Source: a virus. Taken from it: a stretch of 64,000 nucleotides of DNA. Where the stretch lies: positions 1-64,000 of the IMG/VR virus record IMGVR_UViG_3300018080_004265; one strand, 5' to 3'. This document shows positions 18,848 to 27,845 of this stretch, piece after piece; the stretch's first letter is position 1, and every line of letters starts with the position of its first letter. Both the position numbers and the translations under genes were made by a program. Below the pieces are notes generated by a model. The model ran no database searches. It was not told the DNA's origin and worked only from the letters and a program-made list of their open reading frames with translations.

Positions 18848-20500
18848 ATGGCATTTCGCGATGGATTTAATCAAACTATGAATAAAGCTTTTGGGCATTC
18901 ACAAGTGTCTGCACGCCCATCTATTGTTACATCTGGAAGTTCAATGGAAAAGTCCATGCGAGCCTATTTACCTACATACCGTGATGATGCTCGATATGGA
19001 CAACCACCAGAAGAAGGCTTTGAATACAAACTTAGAACTTCTTTATTGCGTAAAATGTATGAAAGAAATGTTGTTGTTCGTGCGGCAATAGATACTATTA
19101 TTAATGAAGTTGTATCTGCAAAATTTGAAATTAAACCAATAAATCCAGATGAAAAAGTTAGTCCAGAAAAAAAATCACAACAAGATAAAAAAATAAAAGA
19201 AATAGAAGATTTTTTTAATCATCCAAATGAAAATAGAGAATCATTTCGTATTTTATTAGAAAAAATGATGTGGGATCTTCTAGTATTTGATGCTGGTGTC
19301 ATAGAAAAAGTTAGAAATGTTGGCGGAGATAAATTAAAAGAAATTTATGCGATACCTGGAGATACAATAAGAATTAAAGTAGATGAACATGGTAAAATAT
19401 TAGGGTATTGGCAAGTATTAGATGGTACAAAACGACCACCTAAGTTTTTTAAATCAGATAATATTATATATATCGTAATGAATCCGCGTTCTCATACACC
19501 TTATGGATTTTCTCCATTACATACATTGGAGAATATGGTAACAGCTTTCTTATATTCAGAACATTACAATGTTAAATATTTTGAAAATAATGCTACACCA
19601 AGGGGAATATTAGAACTTGGAGCTATTAATGAAGGTCAATTAGATAGATTTAGAGAATATTGGAGGCAAGAAAATCTTCAGCAACCACATCGTGTAATGG
19701 TTGTTTCCAATCCGCATGCACACGAAGGCAAAGGCGGAATCAAATGGATTCCTTTAGCGTTAAATGCTAAAGATATGGAGCTAATGCAATATTTAAATTG
19801 GTTAATGAAAATGATTCTTATGGTCTTTGGCGTTACGCCATCCGAGGTCGGCTTTGCGGACGAACTTAGAGGTGCACCTGCTCTTGGCCAAGTCCTCCAA
19901 TCTCAAGCTTTTAAAAATAAAGCAATCTTTCCTATGATGGATAGAATTGCAAGATATTTTACTGAAGAAATTATTGTTTCTGAATTTGGGGCTAAAGATT
20001 TAATATTTGATTTTATTGAAGAACAATCAATTCAAGAACAATTACAAAAAGCCCAATTAGATTCATTGTTAATTCAATCTCAAATAATGACTGTTGAAGA
20101 AGTTAGAAAAGACCGTGGATTAGAAATTAAAAAAGGAAGAGGAGTTCCTGGTCTTGAGGGCATTCTCGCTGGATTGCAAGGTAAACCTGCGCCTGGTGAA
20201 GAAGCAGTAATGGGAATTGAAAACGAACCAACAATTGTAGACACCGCATTTAAGCAGTTAAAAGAAGCAGTATATAATCATTTAGGTCTTGATGAAAGTG
20301 TCGAGTCGAAGCCTGGCGTGCCTGAGACATTGGATGGCGCGTACAATGAGCTAAAAGATTCGATTGAAGCATATATTGGGCAGAAGAAAACTGGAGAAAC
20401 TGGAAGTCTTATTGAAGATGCTTTTCATCGATTAGTTAGAGAAATTAAACTTATGACTACAATGAAGCATATAGATGGTATTTTAAGTGGGAACCGCTAA
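18848..20500 (+). CDS. Portal protein
   Basis: A 550-residue protein with portal features. The N-terminal part includes RKMYERNVVVRAAIDTIINE. The clip/stem region includes GDTIRIKVDEHGKILGYWQV, DNIIYIVMNPRSHTPYGFSP and LNWLMKMILMVFGVTPSEVG. There is a conserved QSQ-containing helix near residue 355, and a C-terminal helical and acidic extension follows from about residue 420. Twelve copies form the packaging ring at the capsid vertex. It is followed directly by a small gene, MuF-like and protease genes as expected for a head module. Confidence 0.93.
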   Translation: MAFRDGFNQTMNKAFGHSQVSARPSIVTSGSSMEKSMRAYLPTYRDDARYGQPPEEGFEYKLRTSLLRKMYERNVVVRAAIDTIINEVVSAKFEIKPINPDEKVSPEKKSQQDKKIKEIEDFFNHPNENRESFRILLEKMMWDLLVFDAGVIEKVRNVGGDKLKEIYAIPGDTIRIKVDEHGKILGYWQVLDGTKRPPKFFKSDNIIYIVMNPRSHTPYGFSPLHTLENMVTAFLYSEHYNVKYFENNATPRGILELGAINEGQLDRFREYWRQENLQQPHRVMVVSNPHAHEGKGGIKWIPLALNAKDMELMQYLNWLMKMILMVFGVTPSEVGFADELRGAPALGQVLQSQAFKNKAIFPMMDRIARYFTEEIIVSEFGAKDLIFDFIEEQSIQEQLQKAQLDSLLIQSQIMTVEEVRKDRGLEIKKGRGVPGLEGILAGLQGKPAPGEEAVMGIENEPTIVDTAFKQLKEAVYNHLGLDESVESKPGVPETLDGAYNELKDSIEAYIGQKKTGETGSLIEDAFHRLVREIKLMTTMKHIDGILSGNR

Positions 20501-21541: not shown

Positions 21542-22876
21542 ATGGGTACGTTAGATAGAACATACAAAGATATTTTAAAGCAATTTTTTCCTGAGACGTC
21601 ACATAAAATACCTATTTATAAAACTATGTCAACGACAGTTGGTAAACCAAGAGGTCCACTTACTGAAGAGCATAAGCGCCATATTAGCGAATCATTAAAA
21701 AAGAAATATGGTGCCACTAATTATGATGAAATATTTAAACGTTTTATTAGTGAAAATTACGGTATTATTGGTAATGTCGTAAAAAAATATCAACCTTATG
21801 CCGATCGAGATGATTTGATTCAAGAAGCATTGGTTAAGGTATATGAAAATTTTCATAGATATGATCCAGATATTTCTAAACCTACTACTTGGTTAAATCA
21901 AGTAGTTAGTGGACATTTACATGGATATATTACTCCTCAAGAATTAAAAAGGCATGGGGCTTATGTAAAAATGGTAACTTTTAAAAGAATTGCTGCAAAA
22001 TTCCTAAAAGATACTGGAAAAGAAGCAACAAATGAAGATATTTCTCGTATCTCAGGAGAACCTCTTGAAAAAGTAAATGTTATTTTAAATCTTTCCAAAC
22101 CCGTACTTCAATTAGATCAACCAATGAAATTCGGCGATGATGATAATATGTTATTAGGAGATACGCTTGAAGTCATTGGCCCATCACCAGAAGATATTGT
22201 AGAAAGAATAGAGGCAAAAGAAATGATTAATCAAGCAATAGATCAGTTAGATGATAGAGAGAAAGTAGTTATATTAGAAAATACTGGATACAAAACTGGC
22301 GAACCTAAAAATGATTCTGAAGTTGCAAGAATATTAAATATTTCAAGTGTATATGTAAAAAAGATAAGGGAAAAAGCATTTGATAAAATGAAAAGATTTT
22401 TAAAGAAAAAAGAATATGTTGCAAAATCAGAAGATACTCCAGATAAAATTATTCTATATTTAGCAGGAATAGAACAAGCGATTAATCAATTAAATGATAA
22501 AGCAGTTATTAAATCAATGGTCACTTCATTATTAACTGCTATTAGTAAAAAAGAAATTAAAAAAACATATAATCCAATAAGAATTAGACAAAGAGATCCA
22601 AAAATATTTAATAAAGATACCATGAGAACAATAAGTTTATCAAAAAGTCTTGGTATTCAAGCGGTTATTGGTGAATTACCAAACGATAAAAGAACAAGAG
22701 TTCAAACACTTATATTCAATAGAACTCCCGATGAAGGCAAAACATGGGATTTAAAAGAAGCAAAATCATGGGTAAAAGCGCATAAAGAAAGGATAAAAGT
22801 AAGTTTAGATTTAAAAGAATTATTAGAAAAAACTAAAAAAATTATCGATAAACAAATAGAAGAAGAGGTGAAATAA
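21542..22876 (+). CDS. Sigma-70-family protein with phage C-terminal extension
   Basis: A 444-residue protein. Residues ~1-45 hold an IPIYK start-like motif, GKPRGP and a NUMOD3-like LTEEHKRHISESLKKKYG. Sigma region 2 follows (DRDDLIQEALVKVYENFHRY, then PTTWLNQVVSGHL), then a region 3-like helix (GKEATNEDISRISGEP) and region 4 with helix-turn-helix (INQAIDQLDDREKVVI, then DSEVARILNISSVYVKKI). The last ~140 residues are unlike sigma factors and include RTPDEGKTWDLKEAKSWVKA, a motif I associate with phage head/protease C-termini. It lies in the head operon between MuF and protease. It may direct late transcription or be packaged. Confidence 0.82.
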   Translation: MGTLDRTYKDILKQFFPETSHKIPIYKTMSTTVGKPRGPLTEEHKRHISESLKKKYGATNYDEIFKRFISENYGIIGNVVKKYQPYADRDDLIQEALVKVYENFHRYDPDISKPTTWLNQVVSGHLHGYITPQELKRHGAYVKMVTFKRIAAKFLKDTGKEATNEDISRISGEPLEKVNVILNLSKPVLQLDQPMKFGDDDNMLLGDTLEVIGPSPEDIVERIEAKEMINQAIDQLDDREKVVILENTGYKTGEPKNDSEVARILNISSVYVKKIREKAFDKMKRFLKKKEYVAKSEDTPDKIILYLAGIEQAINQLNDKAVIKSMVTSLLTAISKKEIKKTYNPIRIRQRDPKIFNKDTMRTISLSKSLGIQAVIGELPNDKRTRVQTLIFNRTPDEGKTWDLKEAKSWVKAHKERIKVSLDLKELLEKTKKIIDKQIEEEVK

Positions 22877-24852
22877 TGTTTAATCCGATATTTAAAGGAA
22901 AAATATCGAAAAGTGATAGTGACAAATCTGATAATAAATTTTTTATTCAAGGATATATGTCAAAACCAGTAGTTGATTTAGAAAATGAAATAGTTGATAC
23001 TTCGGCTTATGATGATGCTATTGATACTGTTCAACAACGATCAGCAGTTGGGAGACCAATTCCGATTTTCATTGAACATAGAAGAAAAGAATTAAGTTTA
23101 CCAGTTGGTAAAATTGTAGATGCTGGAAAAGATGATAAAGGATTGTGGTTTAAAGGAGAAATTGCTGGTGGAGTTATTGGACAACCAGTAAGAGATTTAA
23201 TTAAAGGTGGATATCTATATGGATGTTCCATTGGTGGAGATGCATTAAAAACAATTCCCTTTTATGATTCGAAATCTAGAAAGGACGTTCGAAAGATTAC
23301 GAAGATGGCATTCAGGGAACTGTCATTAACTGGACTTCCCGTCAACGAGGAAGCAGTTTTTTCAATTGCGAAAAGTTTAAATAAAGATGGAAGGGAGGTG
23401 AAGTTGTTAATGAACAAGTTGAATAAAGCCATCGACATGCAGCAAACGCTTAAAACTTTGGAAAAGGCTGTAGAGCCTGATAATTTAGATGAAGCAAGTC
23501 TAAACCGAATTAAAGAAGCGTTGAACAATTTAGCTAAATTGCTTAAGATAGATATTGCAGAAGGTGGAGGTGTTACTGGTGAAGGGGCCACTCCTGTAGA
23601 AGGAGCTGAAACTCCAACTCCAGAAGCACAACCTGCTGCTGATACAACAGCTGCTCCGGAACCAGCTGTTGCAGAACAAGCTCCTTCAGAAGAGGAGACA
23701 ACTGAAATAGAAGAAAAGAAAAAGAAACCAGAAGAAGAAGTAAAATTAAAAACTCCGGGTACGCCAGAAGAAGGATCAAAGCTTGATGAAATTAATTCTA
23801 AGCTTGATAAACTTTTGAGTATGGAAGCTACTGAAGAGGAAAGTAAATATTCTGAAGAAGATAATTCTGAAGATAATGATTCAGAAGAAAATGATTCTGA
23901 TGAAGATAATGATAGTGATGATGATGAAAATGGTAAAAAGAAAAAATTTCCTAAGAAAAAAGATGATGAAGAAAGGGGTGACAATATGGAGTACTTGAAA
24001 TGCAGAAAATGCGGAGCTAAATATGATATTACTAAATCATATGACGCGAAGTATTGTCCCGAATGTGGCGAAGAATTAGAAGCCGATCAATCTACTGAAA
24101 AAGCACTAGATACCGAAGGGCTATTTAGTGGGGACGATTTAATCTGTGAGGAATGCGGATCTGTTTTCGGAAAATCCGAAAAATATGAAGCTCACTACTG
24201 CCCTAAATGTGGTAAGTCGTTAGCTACTATTGCTGTAGCACCTCCTGCAAAAGGAGCTGATACAAAGCGTCCTGCTGAAAAGCAGATGCCTAAAGGAAAT
24301 GCTTCCCCAGAAGGCGGAGACAGAGTTGCTGTAGCGCCAAGTCCTAAAGGTGCTGATACAAGTTATCAAGATCCTTCAAATTCTGATGGATCTGGTATGG
24401 ATTGGAAAACACCAGACAAAGATATTGATAATTTAAGTAAAGGTGAGAATGCAGACGGTATGGAAAAAGATCTTTCGATCGATAAACCTGTAAAAGACAA
24501 CGCTAATAACGTTGCTTCTTATAAAGGAACTTATTACGTACCTGCTGATCAGAAAGAAGTTACAGATAGAAAAGGATCTGATCTCAACGAATCTCGTCCA
24601 GCTGGAAAACCTATGTTAGGGGCTGATAATCCGGACAAGTATACACAGTACGGAAAAGACAGAATGGGTAAGAGTATGGATGAAAGATTGAGTTCAATCG
24701 AAAAAACGATTGAAAAAGTCCTTGATAAATCTGAAGGAAGAAAATCTGAAATTCCTGGTGAAGGTATTGAGAAGTCTCAAACAGCTTCTGTTCCTTCCCA
24801 AGAATCTATGGATAGAAACTTTGCACAATATTTGTTAGGTTCAAAGAAATAA
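22876..24852 (+). CDS. Prohead protease-scaffold fusion with two zinc ribbons
   Basis: A 658-residue protein. Residues 1-170 are an S78-type prohead protease with His in IFIEHRRKELSLPVG (about 64-78), Ser in YGCSIGGDA (about 115-123) and a typical FRELSLTGLPVNEEAVF end. Residues ~180-365 form a helical then very acidic, Pro/Glu/Ser/Asp-rich scaffold. Two Cys4 zinc ribbons follow (CRKCG...CPEC near 375-395; CEECG...CPKC near 424-446), then low-complexity linker and a C-terminal coiled coil (MDERLSSIEKTIEKVLDK). Two strong internal ribosome binding sites suggest nested products. Zinc ribbons in a scaffold are unusual. Confidence 0.88.
   Translation: MFNPIFKGKISKSDSDKSDNKFFIQGYMSKPVVDLENEIVDTSAYDDAIDTVQQRSAVGRPIPIFIEHRRKELSLPVGKIVDAGKDDKGLWFKGEIAGGVIGQPVRDLIKGGYLYGCSIGGDALKTIPFYDSKSRKDVRKITKMAFRELSLTGLPVNEEAVFSIAKSLNKDGREVKLLMNKLNKAIDMQQTLKTLEKAVEPDNLDEASLNRIKEALNNLAKLLKIDIAEGGGVTGEGATPVEGAETPTPEAQPAADTTAAPEPAVAEQAPSEEETTEIEEKKKKPEEEVKLKTPGTPEEGSKLDEINSKLDKLLSMEATEEESKYSEEDNSEDNDSEENDSDEDNDSDDDENGKKKKFPKKKDDEERGDNMEYLKCRKCGAKYDITKSYDAKYCPECGEELEADQSTEKALDTEGLFSGDDLICEECGSVFGKSEKYEAHYCPKCGKSLATIAVAPPAKGADTKRPAEKQMPKGNASPEGGDRVAVAPSPKGADTSYQDPSNSDGSGMDWKTPDKDIDNLSKGENADGMEKDLSIDKPVKDNANNVASYKGTYYVPADQKEVTDRKGSDLNESRPAGKPMLGADNPDKYTQYGKDRMGKSMDERLSSIEKTIEKVLDKSEGRKSEIPGEGIEKSQTASVPSQESMDRNFAQYLLGSKK
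23410..24852 (+). CDS. Probable nested scaffold product (internal start)
   Basis: In-frame ATG 23410 is preceded by AAGGGAGGTGAA at 23391-23402, as good as any ribosome binding site in the window. It lies exactly where the protease domain ends and the scaffold begins (product starts MNKLNKAIDMQQTLKTLEKA, helical). An in-frame TTG at 23404 is a second option. Known phages such as lambda (C/Nu3) make the scaffold from an in-frame internal start, so the same arrangement is inferred here. Confidence 0.5.
   Translation: MNKLNKAIDMQQTLKTLEKAVEPDNLDEASLNRIKEALNNLAKLLKIDIAEGGGVTGEGATPVEGAETPTPEAQPAADTTAAPEPAVAEQAPSEEETTEIEEKKKKPEEEVKLKTPGTPEEGSKLDEINSKLDKLLSMEATEEESKYSEEDNSEDNDSEENDSDEDNDSDDDENGKKKKFPKKKDDEERGDNMEYLKCRKCGAKYDITKSYDAKYCPECGEELEADQSTEKALDTEGLFSGDDLICEECGSVFGKSEKYEAHYCPKCGKSLATIAVAPPAKGADTKRPAEKQMPKGNASPEGGDRVAVAPSPKGADTSYQDPSNSDGSGMDWKTPDKDIDNLSKGENADGMEKDLSIDKPVKDNANNVASYKGTYYVPADQKEVTDRKGSDLNESRPAGKPMLGADNPDKYTQYGKDRMGKSMDERLSSIEKTIEKVLDKSEGRKSEIPGEGIEKSQTASVPSQESMDRNFAQYLLGSKK
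23986..24852 (+). CDS. Possible nested zinc-ribbon product (internal start)
   Basis: A second in-frame ATG at 23986 follows AAAGGGGTGACAAT (23973-23985), nearly the same ribosome binding sequence as the major capsid gene (AAGGGGTGAAATTAAA). The product would begin MEYLKCRKCGAKYD and contain both zinc ribbons plus the coiled-coil tail, without protease and acidic scaffold. Precise placement at the domain boundary argues against chance. Expression is unproven. Confidence 0.45.
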   Translation: MEYLKCRKCGAKYDITKSYDAKYCPECGEELEADQSTEKALDTEGLFSGDDLICEECGSVFGKSEKYEAHYCPKCGKSLATIAVAPPAKGADTKRPAEKQMPKGNASPEGGDRVAVAPSPKGADTSYQDPSNSDGSGMDWKTPDKDIDNLSKGENADGMEKDLSIDKPVKDNANNVASYKGTYYVPADQKEVTDRKGSDLNESRPAGKPMLGADNPDKYTQYGKDRMGKSMDERLSSIEKTIEKVLDKSEGRKSEIPGEGIEKSQTASVPSQESMDRNFAQYLLGSKK

Positions 24853-24963: not shown

Positions 24964-25405
24964 ATGGGTTTAGAGAAAGCTCTTTCTAGTGCCGTAGGTC
25001 AAGGCGGAGATACAATTATCCCTCAGCTTGCTGATCAGATAATTCCATTTATTCGTCAAAAGTCTTATTTAAGACAATTCCTACAAAGTTTCACTATGCC
25101 TACAGAAACATATCGTTTTCCTAAGTTAACACAAGGGAATTCTGTATATTATGTGGGTGAAGCTGCAAGTGCACCTGAGAGTTTAATGACTACAGGAACT
25201 ATCGAACTTAATGCTAAAAAGCTTATGGTTGCGTTAGCAATTTCTGCTGAGTTAGAAGAAGATGCTGTTGTTCCTATCGTACCGGTTGTCCGTGACGATA
25301 TGGCAAAAGCATTCGCTCTTGCTGAAGAAAACGTATTCATCAATGGTGATACGACTCATACAGCGACTCAAACAGATCCTGCTTCTGCTACAGAAGCGGA
25401 TTGGT
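24964..25405 (+). CDS. Major capsid protein, exon 1
   Basis: HK97-fold major capsid protein start: VGQGGDTIIPQLADQIIPFI, then LRQFLQSFTMPTETYRFPKL, GEAASAPESLMTTGTIELNA and AFALAEENVFINGDTT. After ATEADW the frame runs into non-coding intron sequence. The 5' splice site after T25405 is defined by a P1 helix (ATTGGT 25400-25405 with GCCAAT 25415-25420) ending in the required U-G pair. Joined exons 25405|26380 and 26639|27603 give 945 nt, a 314-residue protein. It continues as W-Y-VNDHRLAFNG across junction 1. Confidence 0.93.
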
Positions 25406-26379
25406 GTTTTACACGCCAATGTAAAACCCTGAAGAATTGCTGGAAAGTCTTAAAGTCTATCTACTACAACGTAATTTCTTATATAGAAGTAAGCGTGAAT
25501 TGTTTGAAAAATGATAGAATTATGCAATTTGCATAAATAGACAATCAGCAGCCGAGCCCGAAAGGGAAGGTTCAGAGACTATGTATCGGGGATGTTTAAC
25601 AAAACATAAGATATAGTCCGAACTATATGGAGACATATAGAATTATCCAGAAATGAGATAATCTTTAAATAGAATATGGGGTTAAGATAAGAAGTCATGA
25701 GCTTATCGATGGAGCCCAAACTCCAAACCCCACCAATCTTTTGGGAGGTTGAAATGAATGAATTCGTTATATGTGAAATTTGTAGTCAGAAACTAAAAAG
25801 AATTACAAATACTCATTTAAAGCAACATAATCTAACATTTAAAGAATATATTGAATTATACCCTAATTCAAATACAACTTCTAAAATTGTTAGAGATAAA
25901 ATAAGTAAAAACGGAAAAGGAATAACAGGAAGAAAAGCAGGATTTAAGCATAACAAAAAGCATAAAAAGTTAATAAGTAATTTAATGAAAAATAGAAAAA
26001 TTACTTGGAAAGATAAGATAAGAGAGACAATTCAAGATTATTACGATAATAATACTTTAATTGGATGGAAAAGTAAAGAATGTTATGAAAATAAGCCAGA
26101 ATATATGAAGAATATATTCTATGGGAATGAATGGCTGAGTATTCGGTCAAAAGTTAAACAAAGAGATAAATTTATTTGTCAAGATTGTAAAAAGAAAGAA
26201 AATAAATTAGCTGTTCATCACATAATTCCTTTTAAGCATTACTTATTAAAGCACAATGGTAGTTTAGAAAAAGCTAGAAAAGACGCACATAAATTGAAAA
26301 ACTTAATTACCTTATGTTTTAGCTGTCACATGAAAAGAGAAAGACGAATTCAAAAATCTATTTAATAGTAACAAAATTG
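25406..26379 (+). ncRNA. Group I intron 1 in the capsid gene
   Basis: A 974 nt intron. P1 pairs exon ATTGGT with GCCAAT (25415-25420). P10 pairs TTTACA (25408-25413) with TGTAAA of exon 2 (26381-26386). The 3' end is G26379. Core sequence before the ORF includes GAAGGTTCAGAGACTATG and AAGATATAGTCC, the P3/P7 type blocks of td-like group IA introns. The frame is restored exactly on removal, and the joined codon TAT fits between exon 1 Trp and exon 2 Val. It encodes an HNH endonuclease at 25754. Confidence 0.92.
25754..26365 (+). CDS. Intron-encoded HNH homing endonuclease
   Basis: A 203-residue protein. The N-terminal CEICSQKLKRITNTHLKQHN and the following FKEYIELYP resemble a MucR/Ros-type zinc finger, and GKGITGRKAGFKHNKKHKK is a basic linker. 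The HNH core is CQDCKKKENKLAVHHIIPF, with NLITLCFSCH as the last part. ATG 25754 is chosen because GGGAGG lies five bases upstream; an upstream in-frame ATG at 25697 lacks this. The ORF ends 14 bp before the 3' splice site. It is expected to cut intron-less capsid genes and spread the intron. Confidence 0.9.
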   Translation: MNEFVICEICSQKLKRITNTHLKQHNLTFKEYIELYPNSNTTSKIVRDKISKNGKGITGRKAGFKHNKKHKKLISNLMKNRKITWKDKIRETIQDYYDNNTLIGWKSKECYENKPEYMKNIFYGNEWLSIRSKVKQRDKFICQDCKKKENKLAVHHIIPFKHYLLKHNGSLEKARKDAHKLKNLITLCFSCHMKRERRIQKSI

Positions 26380-26639
26380 ATGTAAACGACCACAGATTGG
26401 CGTTTAATGGTTTGAGAAAAGTTGCTTGTGGTACTCAGGTAGACGCTGGATCTGGTGCTCTTACTCTTGCTGATATCTCTACAGGTATTCAAAATTTAGA
26501 CGTTTTCGGACGTGATAAATCAGAACTTCTGTTAGTTGTATCTTTGAGAGAAGAAAACACTTTGAGACAGTTGTTAGGTATCAACCTTGCTGTTAACCAG
26601 CTTGGATTAACTGGTACTGCACTTCCGGGTGAAATCGGT
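26380..26639 (+). CDS. Major capsid protein, exon 2
   Basis: A 260 nt middle exon encoding VNDHRLAFNGLRKVACGTQ, a Gly/Asp-rich segment, then SELLLVVSLREENTLRQLLG and QLGLTGTALPGEIG. The 3' boundary at T26639 is set by P1 of intron 2 (AAATCGGT 26632-26639 with GCCGATTT 26667-26674). Its first two bases complete a Tyr codon begun in exon 1. The typical capsid continuation GxxWGVPVV is found only in exon 3, confirming splicing. Confidence 0.92.
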
Positions 26640-27602
26640 AGACACAGTAAATTACCCAATTACTTTGCCGATTTAAAAACTCGTAAATTCGGTGGAACTC
26701 CAGAAATGGACAATACCGAGCCAAGCCTTGTAATTAAATTACTCGGAAGGTGTAGAGACTATACACGAGTCATTTTAGAAAATATTTCTAAAATTGAAGA
26801 TATAGTCCGAACTGCATATAAATCATTAATGATGAAATTGCAGAGCATAGCAGAAATGACTATGCCTCAAGAATTTAATATGGGTCTAAGTTTAGCCTAA
26901 TTAACTAAACGACGGTGCTTGTATCACCAAGACCCACCTAATCTTATACAAGGAGATTAAAATGGTTGCAAAAGGTTCTAAATTATCAGAGGAAACAAAA
27001 AGAAAAATAAGTGAAAGTGTAAAGAAAAAGTTTAAAGAAAGTCCTGAAATTATTGAAAATGGTGTTAAAAAATGGAAAAAATTTTTTAATACAAAAGAAG
27101 GAAAAATAATTTGGGAAGAAAAAAATAAAAAAGTTAGTAATACAATGAAAGGAATTAAAAAGAAGCCTTTCACTAAAAAACACAAAGAAAACATAAGCAA
27201 AGCAACAAAAAGACAATATAAAGAAATGTTTCCTTGGGGTAAACGAAAATCATCAAAAATTCATTTAAAGTTACAAAAACAATTATATAAATACACTGAT
27301 AATTTTATATCAGAAGAATTTATAAGATTAAAAGAATTAGAAAAATGGATTTGTGTTGATGAACTTGATAGAAAAAATAAAATTGCAATATTTATAGATG
27401 GCGAACATTGGCACGCAAGAAATTATAAAGATAATTATATTGTTCGACCTCTAAATAAAACTGCAAAAGAAATAAGAAATAAAGACAAGATAGAAACAAA
27501 ATGTCTTATTTCAAAAGGATATCAAGTTTTAAGATTTTGGGATACCGAAATTGAAAGTAATTTAGAACAATGTATTAATAAAATTCTTGAAGTAACAAAA
27601 TG
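26640..27602 (+). ncRNA. Group I intron 2 in the capsid gene
   Basis: A 963 nt intron. P1 has eight pairs ending in U-G. P10 pairs TACTTT (26661-26666) with AAAGTA of exon 3 (27603-27608). The core includes GAAGGTGTAGAGACTATAC and GAAGATATAGTCC near 26746-26810, close to intron 1. The intron ends at G27602. The open frame runs on from exon 2 for 87 codons into the intron before a stop, which would mislead an annotator. It encodes a Vsr-like endonuclease at 26962 whose stop codon spans the 3' splice site. Confidence 0.92.
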
Positions 27603-27603
27603 A
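26962..27603 (+). CDS. Intron-encoded homing endonuclease (NUMOD3 + Vsr-like)
   Basis: A 213-residue protein. NUMOD3-type motifs are at the N-terminus (KLSEETKRKISESVKKKF, FTKKHKENISKATKRQ). The C-terminal EDxHD/Vsr-like nuclease contains IAIFIDGEHWHARNYKDN, then RNKDKIETKCLISKGYQVLR and FWDTEIE. SD AAGGAG before ATG 26962. The stop TGA (27601-27603) uses the last two intron bases and the first base of exon 3, so the spliced mRNA destroys the stop. It belongs to the I-Bth0305I-like group, unlike the HNH enzyme of intron 1. Confidence 0.9.
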   Translation: MVAKGSKLSEETKRKISESVKKKFKESPEIIENGVKKWKKFFNTKEGKIIWEEKNKKVSNTMKGIKKKPFTKKHKENISKATKRQYKEMFPWGKRKSSKIHLKLQKQLYKYTDNFISEEFIRLKELEKWICVDELDRKNKIAIFIDGEHWHARNYKDNYIVRPLNKTAKEIRNKDKIETKCLISKGYQVLRFWDTEIESNLEQCINKILEVTK

Positions 27604-27845
27604 AAGTATGGGGCGTTCCAGTTGTAGCAACAAACTTATTGAGGGTTAGTGATACTAATACTTCAGAAGCTCTGTTGTTAAATAGAAACGCTGCGGTTAT
27701 CGGCGACAGACGTATTTTCACTATCAAGTCTTCGGATGAGGTATTGTTACGTTCTGACCAGTTGTTAATCGTTGCTTCTGAAAGATTGGCATTTAATGCA
27801 CAATACTGTGAAGCAATCACTAAGATCGTTAACATCGCTAGCTAA
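27603..27845 (+). CDS. Major capsid protein, exon 3
   Basis: A 243 nt final exon encoding KVWGVPVVATNLLRV, LLLNRNAAVIGDRRIFTIKS and ASERLAFNAQYCEAITKIVN, ending TAA. WGxPVV followed by NRNA and a DR stretch is the standard end of HK97-fold capsid proteins. An ATG at 27600 creates a false start because its last two bases are intron sequence. Confidence 0.92.
   Translation, partial: KVWGVPVVATNLLRVSDTNTSEALLLNRNAAVIGDRRIFTIKSSDEVLLRSDQLLIVASERLAFNAQYCEAITKIVNIAS

Follow-up and report, generated by a model that had tools for sequence, protein, structure and literature searches.

Two group I introns of different types in a phage major capsid gene whose relatives apparently carry up to sixteen

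The major capsid gene studied here lies in a window of 64,000 bases (positions 1-64,000) of the 152,375-base virus record IMGVR_UViG_3300018080_004265 from IMG/VR. We consider it very probable (roughly 95%) that this gene carries two mobile self-splicing group I introns of different types, each with a probable homing nuclease, and that in its phage lineage such introns accumulate in the capsid gene as in a sink. In the window the interrupted gene follows a portal gene (18848-20500) and a prohead protease gene (22876-24852) in a head-gene run of a tailed phage. A preliminary description of this DNA had proposed two group I introns in the gene and had named a covariance-model search as one check. 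The search (cmscan, Rfam) detected the group I intron family RF00028 at both places, at 25375-25640 (80.7 bits, E 6e-19) and at 26598-26826 (63.6 bits, E 8e-14), each above the gathering score of 50 bits. No other RNA family was matched in the 64-kb window, and no further RF00028 match was found in the whole 152,375-base record. Together with the P1 and P10 pairings, the terminal G, the P7 strands and the covarying cores described below, these scores bear out the proposal.

Read without splicing, the capsid frame stops at codon 191 (25534-25536). Removal of both introns gives, as had been predicted, a single open frame of 945 nucleotides (nt) and 314 residues, with its sole stop at the end. 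Among the unspliced open reading frames (ORFs), those of exon 1 and exon 3 (27600-27845) matched PF05065, Phage_capsid, with E values of 1.2e-22 and 6.6e-7, and the exon 2 ORF matched no Pfam family; by the profile matches of exons 1 and 3, the split gene encodes an HK97-type major capsid protein.

The spliced product is seen directly in an uninterrupted homologue that reads through both joins. This allele, G001 (record IMGVR_UViG_3300035698_021704, also L001; gene at L001 3106-4053), aligns end to end over all 314 residues with 90% protein identity. Its DNA runs ...GATTGGT/ATGTAAACGA... across join 1 and ...GAAATCGGT/AAAGT... across join 2, as predicted for the window, and the proposed intron coordinates (Table 1) hold. 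A spliced alignment constrained only to a T before and a G at the end of each intron recovered the same four boundaries; it is a consistency check only, since the protein aligned was itself the spliced product of the window gene. At the 5' end of intron 2 the sequence alone leaves a one-base ambiguity, the intron and exon 3 both beginning with A, and the U.G rule picks the base at which the boundary had been placed. Differences between the spliced window gene and G001 are mostly silent (nonsynonymous, pN, 0.080; synonymous, pS, 0.635; pN/pS 0.127), and by this measure the spliced frame is under purifying selection.

Table 1. Exons, introns, guide and core strands, and intron-encoded nuclease genes of the window capsid gene
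Feature	Coordinates	Strand	Details
Exon 1, major capsid protein gene	24964..25405	+	442 nt; PF05065 E 1.2e-22; PHROG major head protein E 7.8e-25; join equals that of intronless G001
Intron 1, group I	25406..26379	+	974 nt; RF00028 80.7 bits; U before the intron, G at its end; P1 6 pairs, P10 6 pairs; covariation
Intron 1 P10 strand	25408..25413	+	pairs with 26381-26386
Intron 1 internal guide sequence GCCAAT	25415..25420	+	pairs with exon end ATTGGT, U.G at splice site
Intron 1 P7 strands	25577..25618	+	GACTAT 25577-25582 and ATAGTC 25613-25618; enclose P3 3' strand and P8; read from sequence by motif position
Intron 1-encoded HNH homing-endonuclease-like protein	25754..26365	+	203 residues, ROS/MUCR-like N-terminus; PF01844 E 3.4e-7 passes the cut-off, ROS_MUCR E 2.8e-4 does not
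Exon 2	26380..26639	+	260 nt; spliced frame and G001 join
Intron 2, group I	26640..27602	+	963 nt; RF00028 63.6 bits; P1 8 pairs, P10 6 pairs; homologous intron with nuclease at same site in L031
Intron 2 P10 strand	26661..26666	+	pairs with 27603-27608
Intron 2 internal guide sequence GCCGATTT	26667..26674	+	pairs with exon end AAATCGGT
Intron 2 P7 strands	26757..26807	+	GACTAT 26757-26762 and ATAGTC 26802-26807; read from sequence by motif position
Intron 2-encoded DUF559/Vsr-like homing-endonuclease-like protein	26962..27603	+	213 residues; PF04480 E 2.7e-8 passes the cut-off, Vsr E 0.0088 does not; L031 relative 64% identical
Exon 3	27603..27845	+	243 nt including stop; PF05065 E 6.6e-7; join equals that of G001

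Both introns show the P1 helix with its U.G pair, the P10 pairing to the next exon and the terminal G that the preliminary description had reported (Table 1, where P1 is counted as contiguous pairs including the U.G at the cognate exon). We examined the pairings in 27 curated introns from six records (window 2, G006 1, G008 2, G010 16, G011 3, L031 3), applying the same search to all combinations. P1 reached at least four pairs in 25 of the 27 cognate combinations of intron and exon versus 156 of 702 non-cognate ones, the counts for hand-chosen introns not being fully independent because P1 guided those boundaries. P10, which was never used to choose a boundary, reached at least four pairs in 18 of 27 cognate combinations versus 57 of 702. 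None of 20,000 permutations reached the cognate sum for P1 or for P10. The T ending the upstream exon and the intron-final G, found in all 27, were imposed during boundary setting.

Covariation points to conserved folded cores in both introns. The RNAalifold consensus of the intron 1 type (intron 1 and seven relatives, 8 sequences) has compensatory changes in 31 of 45 pairs, and that of the intron 2 type (intron 2 and five relatives, 6 sequences) in 13 of 22; every pair of P3 is compensatorily changed in both. P7 was identified by eye and, being invariant, contributes no covariation evidence. A branch with 95/100 support in the tree of introns puts the two window introns in separate clusters: intron 1 groups with G010 introns 2, 5, 6, 11, 13, 15 and 16 and L031 intron 1, and intron 2 resembles G010 intron 12 and L031 intron 2. 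Judged by their clusters and by their different nuclease genes, the two are not copies of each other.

Three things were absent from the preliminary description: a nuclease gene in each intron, an insertion site common to L031, and the intron load of the relatives. Each window intron encodes a protein of a homing-endonuclease family (Table 1); Vsr-like folds are found among homing endonucleases. In L031 (IMGVR_UViG_3300035698_010038), found through a search with the intron 2 nuclease, the site of window intron 2 holds an intron 72% identical over 951 aligned nt, with nucleases 64% identical. Related alleles have the same site occupied or empty: site 702 (window coding-sequence numbering) is filled in the window and L031 and empty in G001, and site 442 is filled in the window only and likewise empty in G001. 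The nuclease of L031 site 459 has its N-terminal domain in common with window nuclease 1 (54% over 54 residues), with a DUF559/Vsr-like domain replacing HNH. Single-sequence patterns found no relatives of the intron 1 nuclease in viral contigs. We also noticed that the TGA stop of the intron 2 nuclease gene (27601-27603) straddles the 3' splice junction, and that L031 has the same layout (2519-2521).

Most likely the window introns are both self-splicing ribozymes. In each, the guide sequence would pair first with the last bases of the upstream exon (P1) and next with the first bases of the downstream exon (P10); guanosine would attack after the last U of the exon, and ligation of the exons at the intron's terminal G would give the 314-residue capsid protein. 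The intron-encoded endonuclease probably cuts intronless capsid alleles, such as that of G001, during mixed infections, and repair of the cut would copy the intron into the allele. The capsid gene of this lineage would be a sink for group I introns, in which G010 has apparently reached 16, partly through the spread of related introns to new sites in the same gene.

To find capsid relatives we used the spliced protein, a seven-sequence alignment, one exon and the downstream head-tail adaptor gene. The spliced window protein found 11 relatives in viral contigs, and no capsid relative was found in genome contigs. L030 (25% identical capsid, no credible introns) and L049, found solely through the downstream head-tail adaptor protein, were excluded from the counts. 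Fourteen records, the window included, hold the capsid gene, nine with introns and five without (G001, G003, G004, G005 and, over residues 88-314, G009). The counts are 2 introns for the window, 1 for G006, 1 for G007 (which matches G006 exactly across 1,950 compared nt), 2 for G008, 16 for G010 and 3 for G011; lower bounds are at least 3 for L031, whose contig begins inside the gene, and, for the partial G002 and L027, at least 2 and at least 1. With several relatives carrying one to three introns and one carrying 16, the earlier remark that two introns in one capsid gene are uncommon needs qualifying.

The 27 curated introns, among which the partial ones of G002 and L027 are not counted, occupy 23 sites. 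Sites 300 and 373 are common to G010 and G011, site 702 to the window and L031, and site 887 to G010 and L031; site 323 is common to L027 and G008 by manual reading, the automatic model lying one base further on. In L006, the L008 region and the L011 region, where nuclease genes interrupt the core, cmscan gave no match, and the introns were placed by spliced alignment, guide pairing, motifs and homology. In G002 a genome search gave an RF00028 match of 52.2 bits, but cmscan did not return this match from that record, and the intron was counted as partial. The automatic model of L031 is spurious upstream of residue 153, its contig starting at the end of that exon, and its exons were set manually. 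The P7 motif GATATAGTCY occurs 25 times in 11 records (the window, G000, with G001-G006 and G008-G011), 24 times in or at the capsid gene, versus 7 occurrences of the reversed pattern, taken as a control, in the same records. The sole P7-like motif outside the capsid gene in these records is at G008:48448, on the minus strand. A preference of the introns for the most conserved codons was weak and was set aside: 930 of 20,000 random site sets reached the observed value, and window site 442 lies within a variable stretch.

The G010 gene (record IMGVR_UViG_3300032053_000045) occupies a capsid locus of 7,780 nt (L014 5353-13132) between the prohead protease and adaptor genes, and appears to be divided into 17 exons by 16 introns that make up 88% of the gene. 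The exons measure, from 1 to 17, 14, 11, 53, 13, 18, 28, 43, 92, 34, 73, 54, 344, 28, 30, 25, 39 and 19 nt, and spliced in silico they give an open frame of 305 codons. The region has 14 RF00028 matches by cmscan, 10 of them over gathering, and all 15 occurrences of GATATAGTCY in the 73.8-kb record fall within the capsid gene; the sixteenth intron has GAGATAGTCT. Automatic spliced alignments gave 14 and 15 introns; they put a boundary in the wrong place, leaving a surplus stretch around residue 145, and missed the last intron. Exons 1, 11, 12, 16 and 17 were set by hand from the sequence. The last intron opens with nine bases, TATTAATAT, identical to the start of the next exon (L014 12819-12827 and 13114-13122). 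Compared with G003, the spliced gene has a pN/pS of 0.154, a sign of purifying selection, and exon groups 1-6, 7-11, 12 and 13-17 each show pN of 0.12-0.16 and pS of 0.80-0.84; with low pN and high pS in every group, even the tiny exons evolve as protein. Exon 4 (13 nt) has five bases in the P10 of intron 3 and seven in the P1 of intron 4. In 6 of the 16 introns the guide pairs best with its own exon end; in the other 10 some other exon end does as well or better. Unless order or folding stands in the way, one would therefore expect mis-splicing or exon skipping.

We lean, by a narrow measure, towards the view that the G010 copy is truly spliced from 17 exons, several of 11-18 nt, through 16 ribozymes acting autonomously on a single transcript, that the capsid gene of the lineage is a runaway intron sink, and that introns may have spread to new sites inside it by changing their guide sequences, through reverse splicing or ectopic homing. 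Several points weigh against the main reading of the window gene and its lineage. Splicing in the cell, homing activity and the route of spread within the gene are predictions from sequence. P1 falls short of four pairs within 32 nt in 2 of the 27 introns (G006_1 and L031_3), and P1 was kept in view when several boundaries in G010 and one in L031 were chosen by hand. G010 introns 9 and 10 gave no Rfam match by cmscan; each has an endonuclease gene inside its core and a same-site homologue in G011. Exon 2 (11 nt) must supply the P10 of one intron and the P1 of the next with overlapping bases. Finally, G010 is one contig of a metagenome, and a search with an exact 27-nt probe turned up no second copy.

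The 16 G010 introns might instead have arrived by separate homing events from other phages, a possibility we rate as real and somewhat the weaker. Introns 9 and 10 have their sites and nuclease genes in common with G011, intron 15 sits at the same site as an L031 intron, and neither the G010 introns nor the window introns form a single group in the tree. Resemblances between introns at different G010 sites speak for spread within the gene: introns 11 and 16 are 80% identical over 245 nt (support 98/95), introns 1 and 3 are 79% identical over 173 nt, and introns 7 and 8 begin nearly alike, at two GGT sites.

Group I introns that are now immobile or regulatory, with splicing tuning capsid output and the nuclease genes as relics, are an unlikely alternative to mobile ones. 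This would suit the 13 of 16 G010 introns that, at 225-295 nt, are too short to hold an endonuclease gene, and the position of the intron 2 nuclease stop, which spans the 3' splice junction, so that translation and splicing could interfere. Both window nuclease genes, however, have open frames with above-cut-off matches to nuclease-type families, and the patchy occupancy of shared sites fits homing.

A broken capsid pseudogene, or a mixed assembly, with insertions that are never removed is a very improbable reading of the gene. The early stop in the unspliced frame would agree with that, and the record was not searched for a second, replacement capsid gene; yet the three exons are in frame, the joined frame has the low pN/pS given above, the joins equal those of an intact allele and the cores covary. 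We rejected a fragmented pseudogene on the frame, the selection and the intact allele, and inteins on the stops that the insertions hold in the capsid frame; as to group II introns, Rfam gave no match to any other intron family.

Two introns in the window capsid gene are not new in kind; the lineage, with G010 foremost, forms an extreme variant of known systems. In a Zeta-group crAss-like phage the major capsid gene is in five fragments, and three of the four insertions have domains typical of group I introns (PMC7886860). The two cases share a phage major capsid gene broken up by multiple insertions that have group I-type domains; the phage group is another one, and the window has two introns and G010 sixteen, most without an endonuclease gene. 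The HK97-type capsid gene of mycobacteriophage LittleE (Cluster J) likewise has one intron, probably group I and predicted mobile, with splicing shown by reverse-transcription PCR and protein sequencing (PMC3706429), whereas the window gene has two of different types, known from sequence. Several group I introns in one phage gene are also described for orf142 of Staphylococcus phage Twort, with three introns and reported exon skipping (PMC11878797, citing Landthaler and Shub 1999), but this is a tail-tube gene and not a capsid gene. The same source gives at most three introns per gene in Bastillevirinae (PMC11878797), and Jug phages have a mean of 18.5 group I introns per genome (PMC12363816).

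G010 resembles cox1 of Agaricus bisporus in having very many group I introns and tiny exons in one gene. The fungal mitochondrial gene has 18 group I introns of 1-2.7 kb, most with intact endonuclease genes, and exons down to 3 nt (PMC2987802), whereas 13 of the 16 G010 introns are only 225-295 nt long. Capsid genes are intron hot spots with endonuclease genes in mirusviruses too, whose major capsid genes have 4-22 introns with endonuclease genes inside; those introns are spliceosomal, predicted to depend on the host nucleus and found in eukaryotic viruses (PMC12768974), unlike the group I introns of this phage. In our full-text literature search no phage gene was described with more than four intervening segments; the search did not reach bioRxiv or the bulk of the subscription journals, so absence is not proven.

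Several further observations concern the relatives and the neighbouring genes. In G002, L017 900-1937 holds a group I core and a nuclease gene near the capsid C-terminus. The start of this insertion re-encodes an alternative end, ESVVKIENISG-stop, resembling the post-insertion end DAVVAIDNIAA-stop, so a full-length capsid protein would be possible without splicing. L027 9319-9898 contains the 5' half of a group I intron (site 323), then a reading frame not recognised by eye as a nuclease, then the contig end. In L051-L053, three contigs of another phage (for example L052 3263-5202), a capsid gene stands beside two flanking group I matches and two HNH-type genes, and a 43-nt piece of the window intron 1 core is present; the capsid is Mu-like gpT, another capsid family. 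In the window, a gene for a sigma-70-like factor (21542-22876) lies between the portal and minor head genes and the prohead protease. The prohead protease itself has a long acidic tail with zinc-ribbon-like motifs, and the tail of its G010 counterpart (L014 3268-5040) is also long and acidic.

For annotation, the split gene is a warning, since ORF calling alone makes it look as if such a phage had no capsid gene. If the reading of G010 is true, its capsid gene would be the densest in introns of the bacteriophage genes known to us, a late structural gene dependent on 16 RNA-catalysed reactions. The window gene is an entry to a lineage whose late structural gene gathers group I introns at no fewer than 23 sites, up to 16 together. 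Questions that this lineage makes testable are how many ribozymes one transcript tolerates, how small an exon can be when it has to serve in P10 as well as in P1, what keeps exons from being skipped, and whether new sites are reached through reverse splicing or endonucleases.

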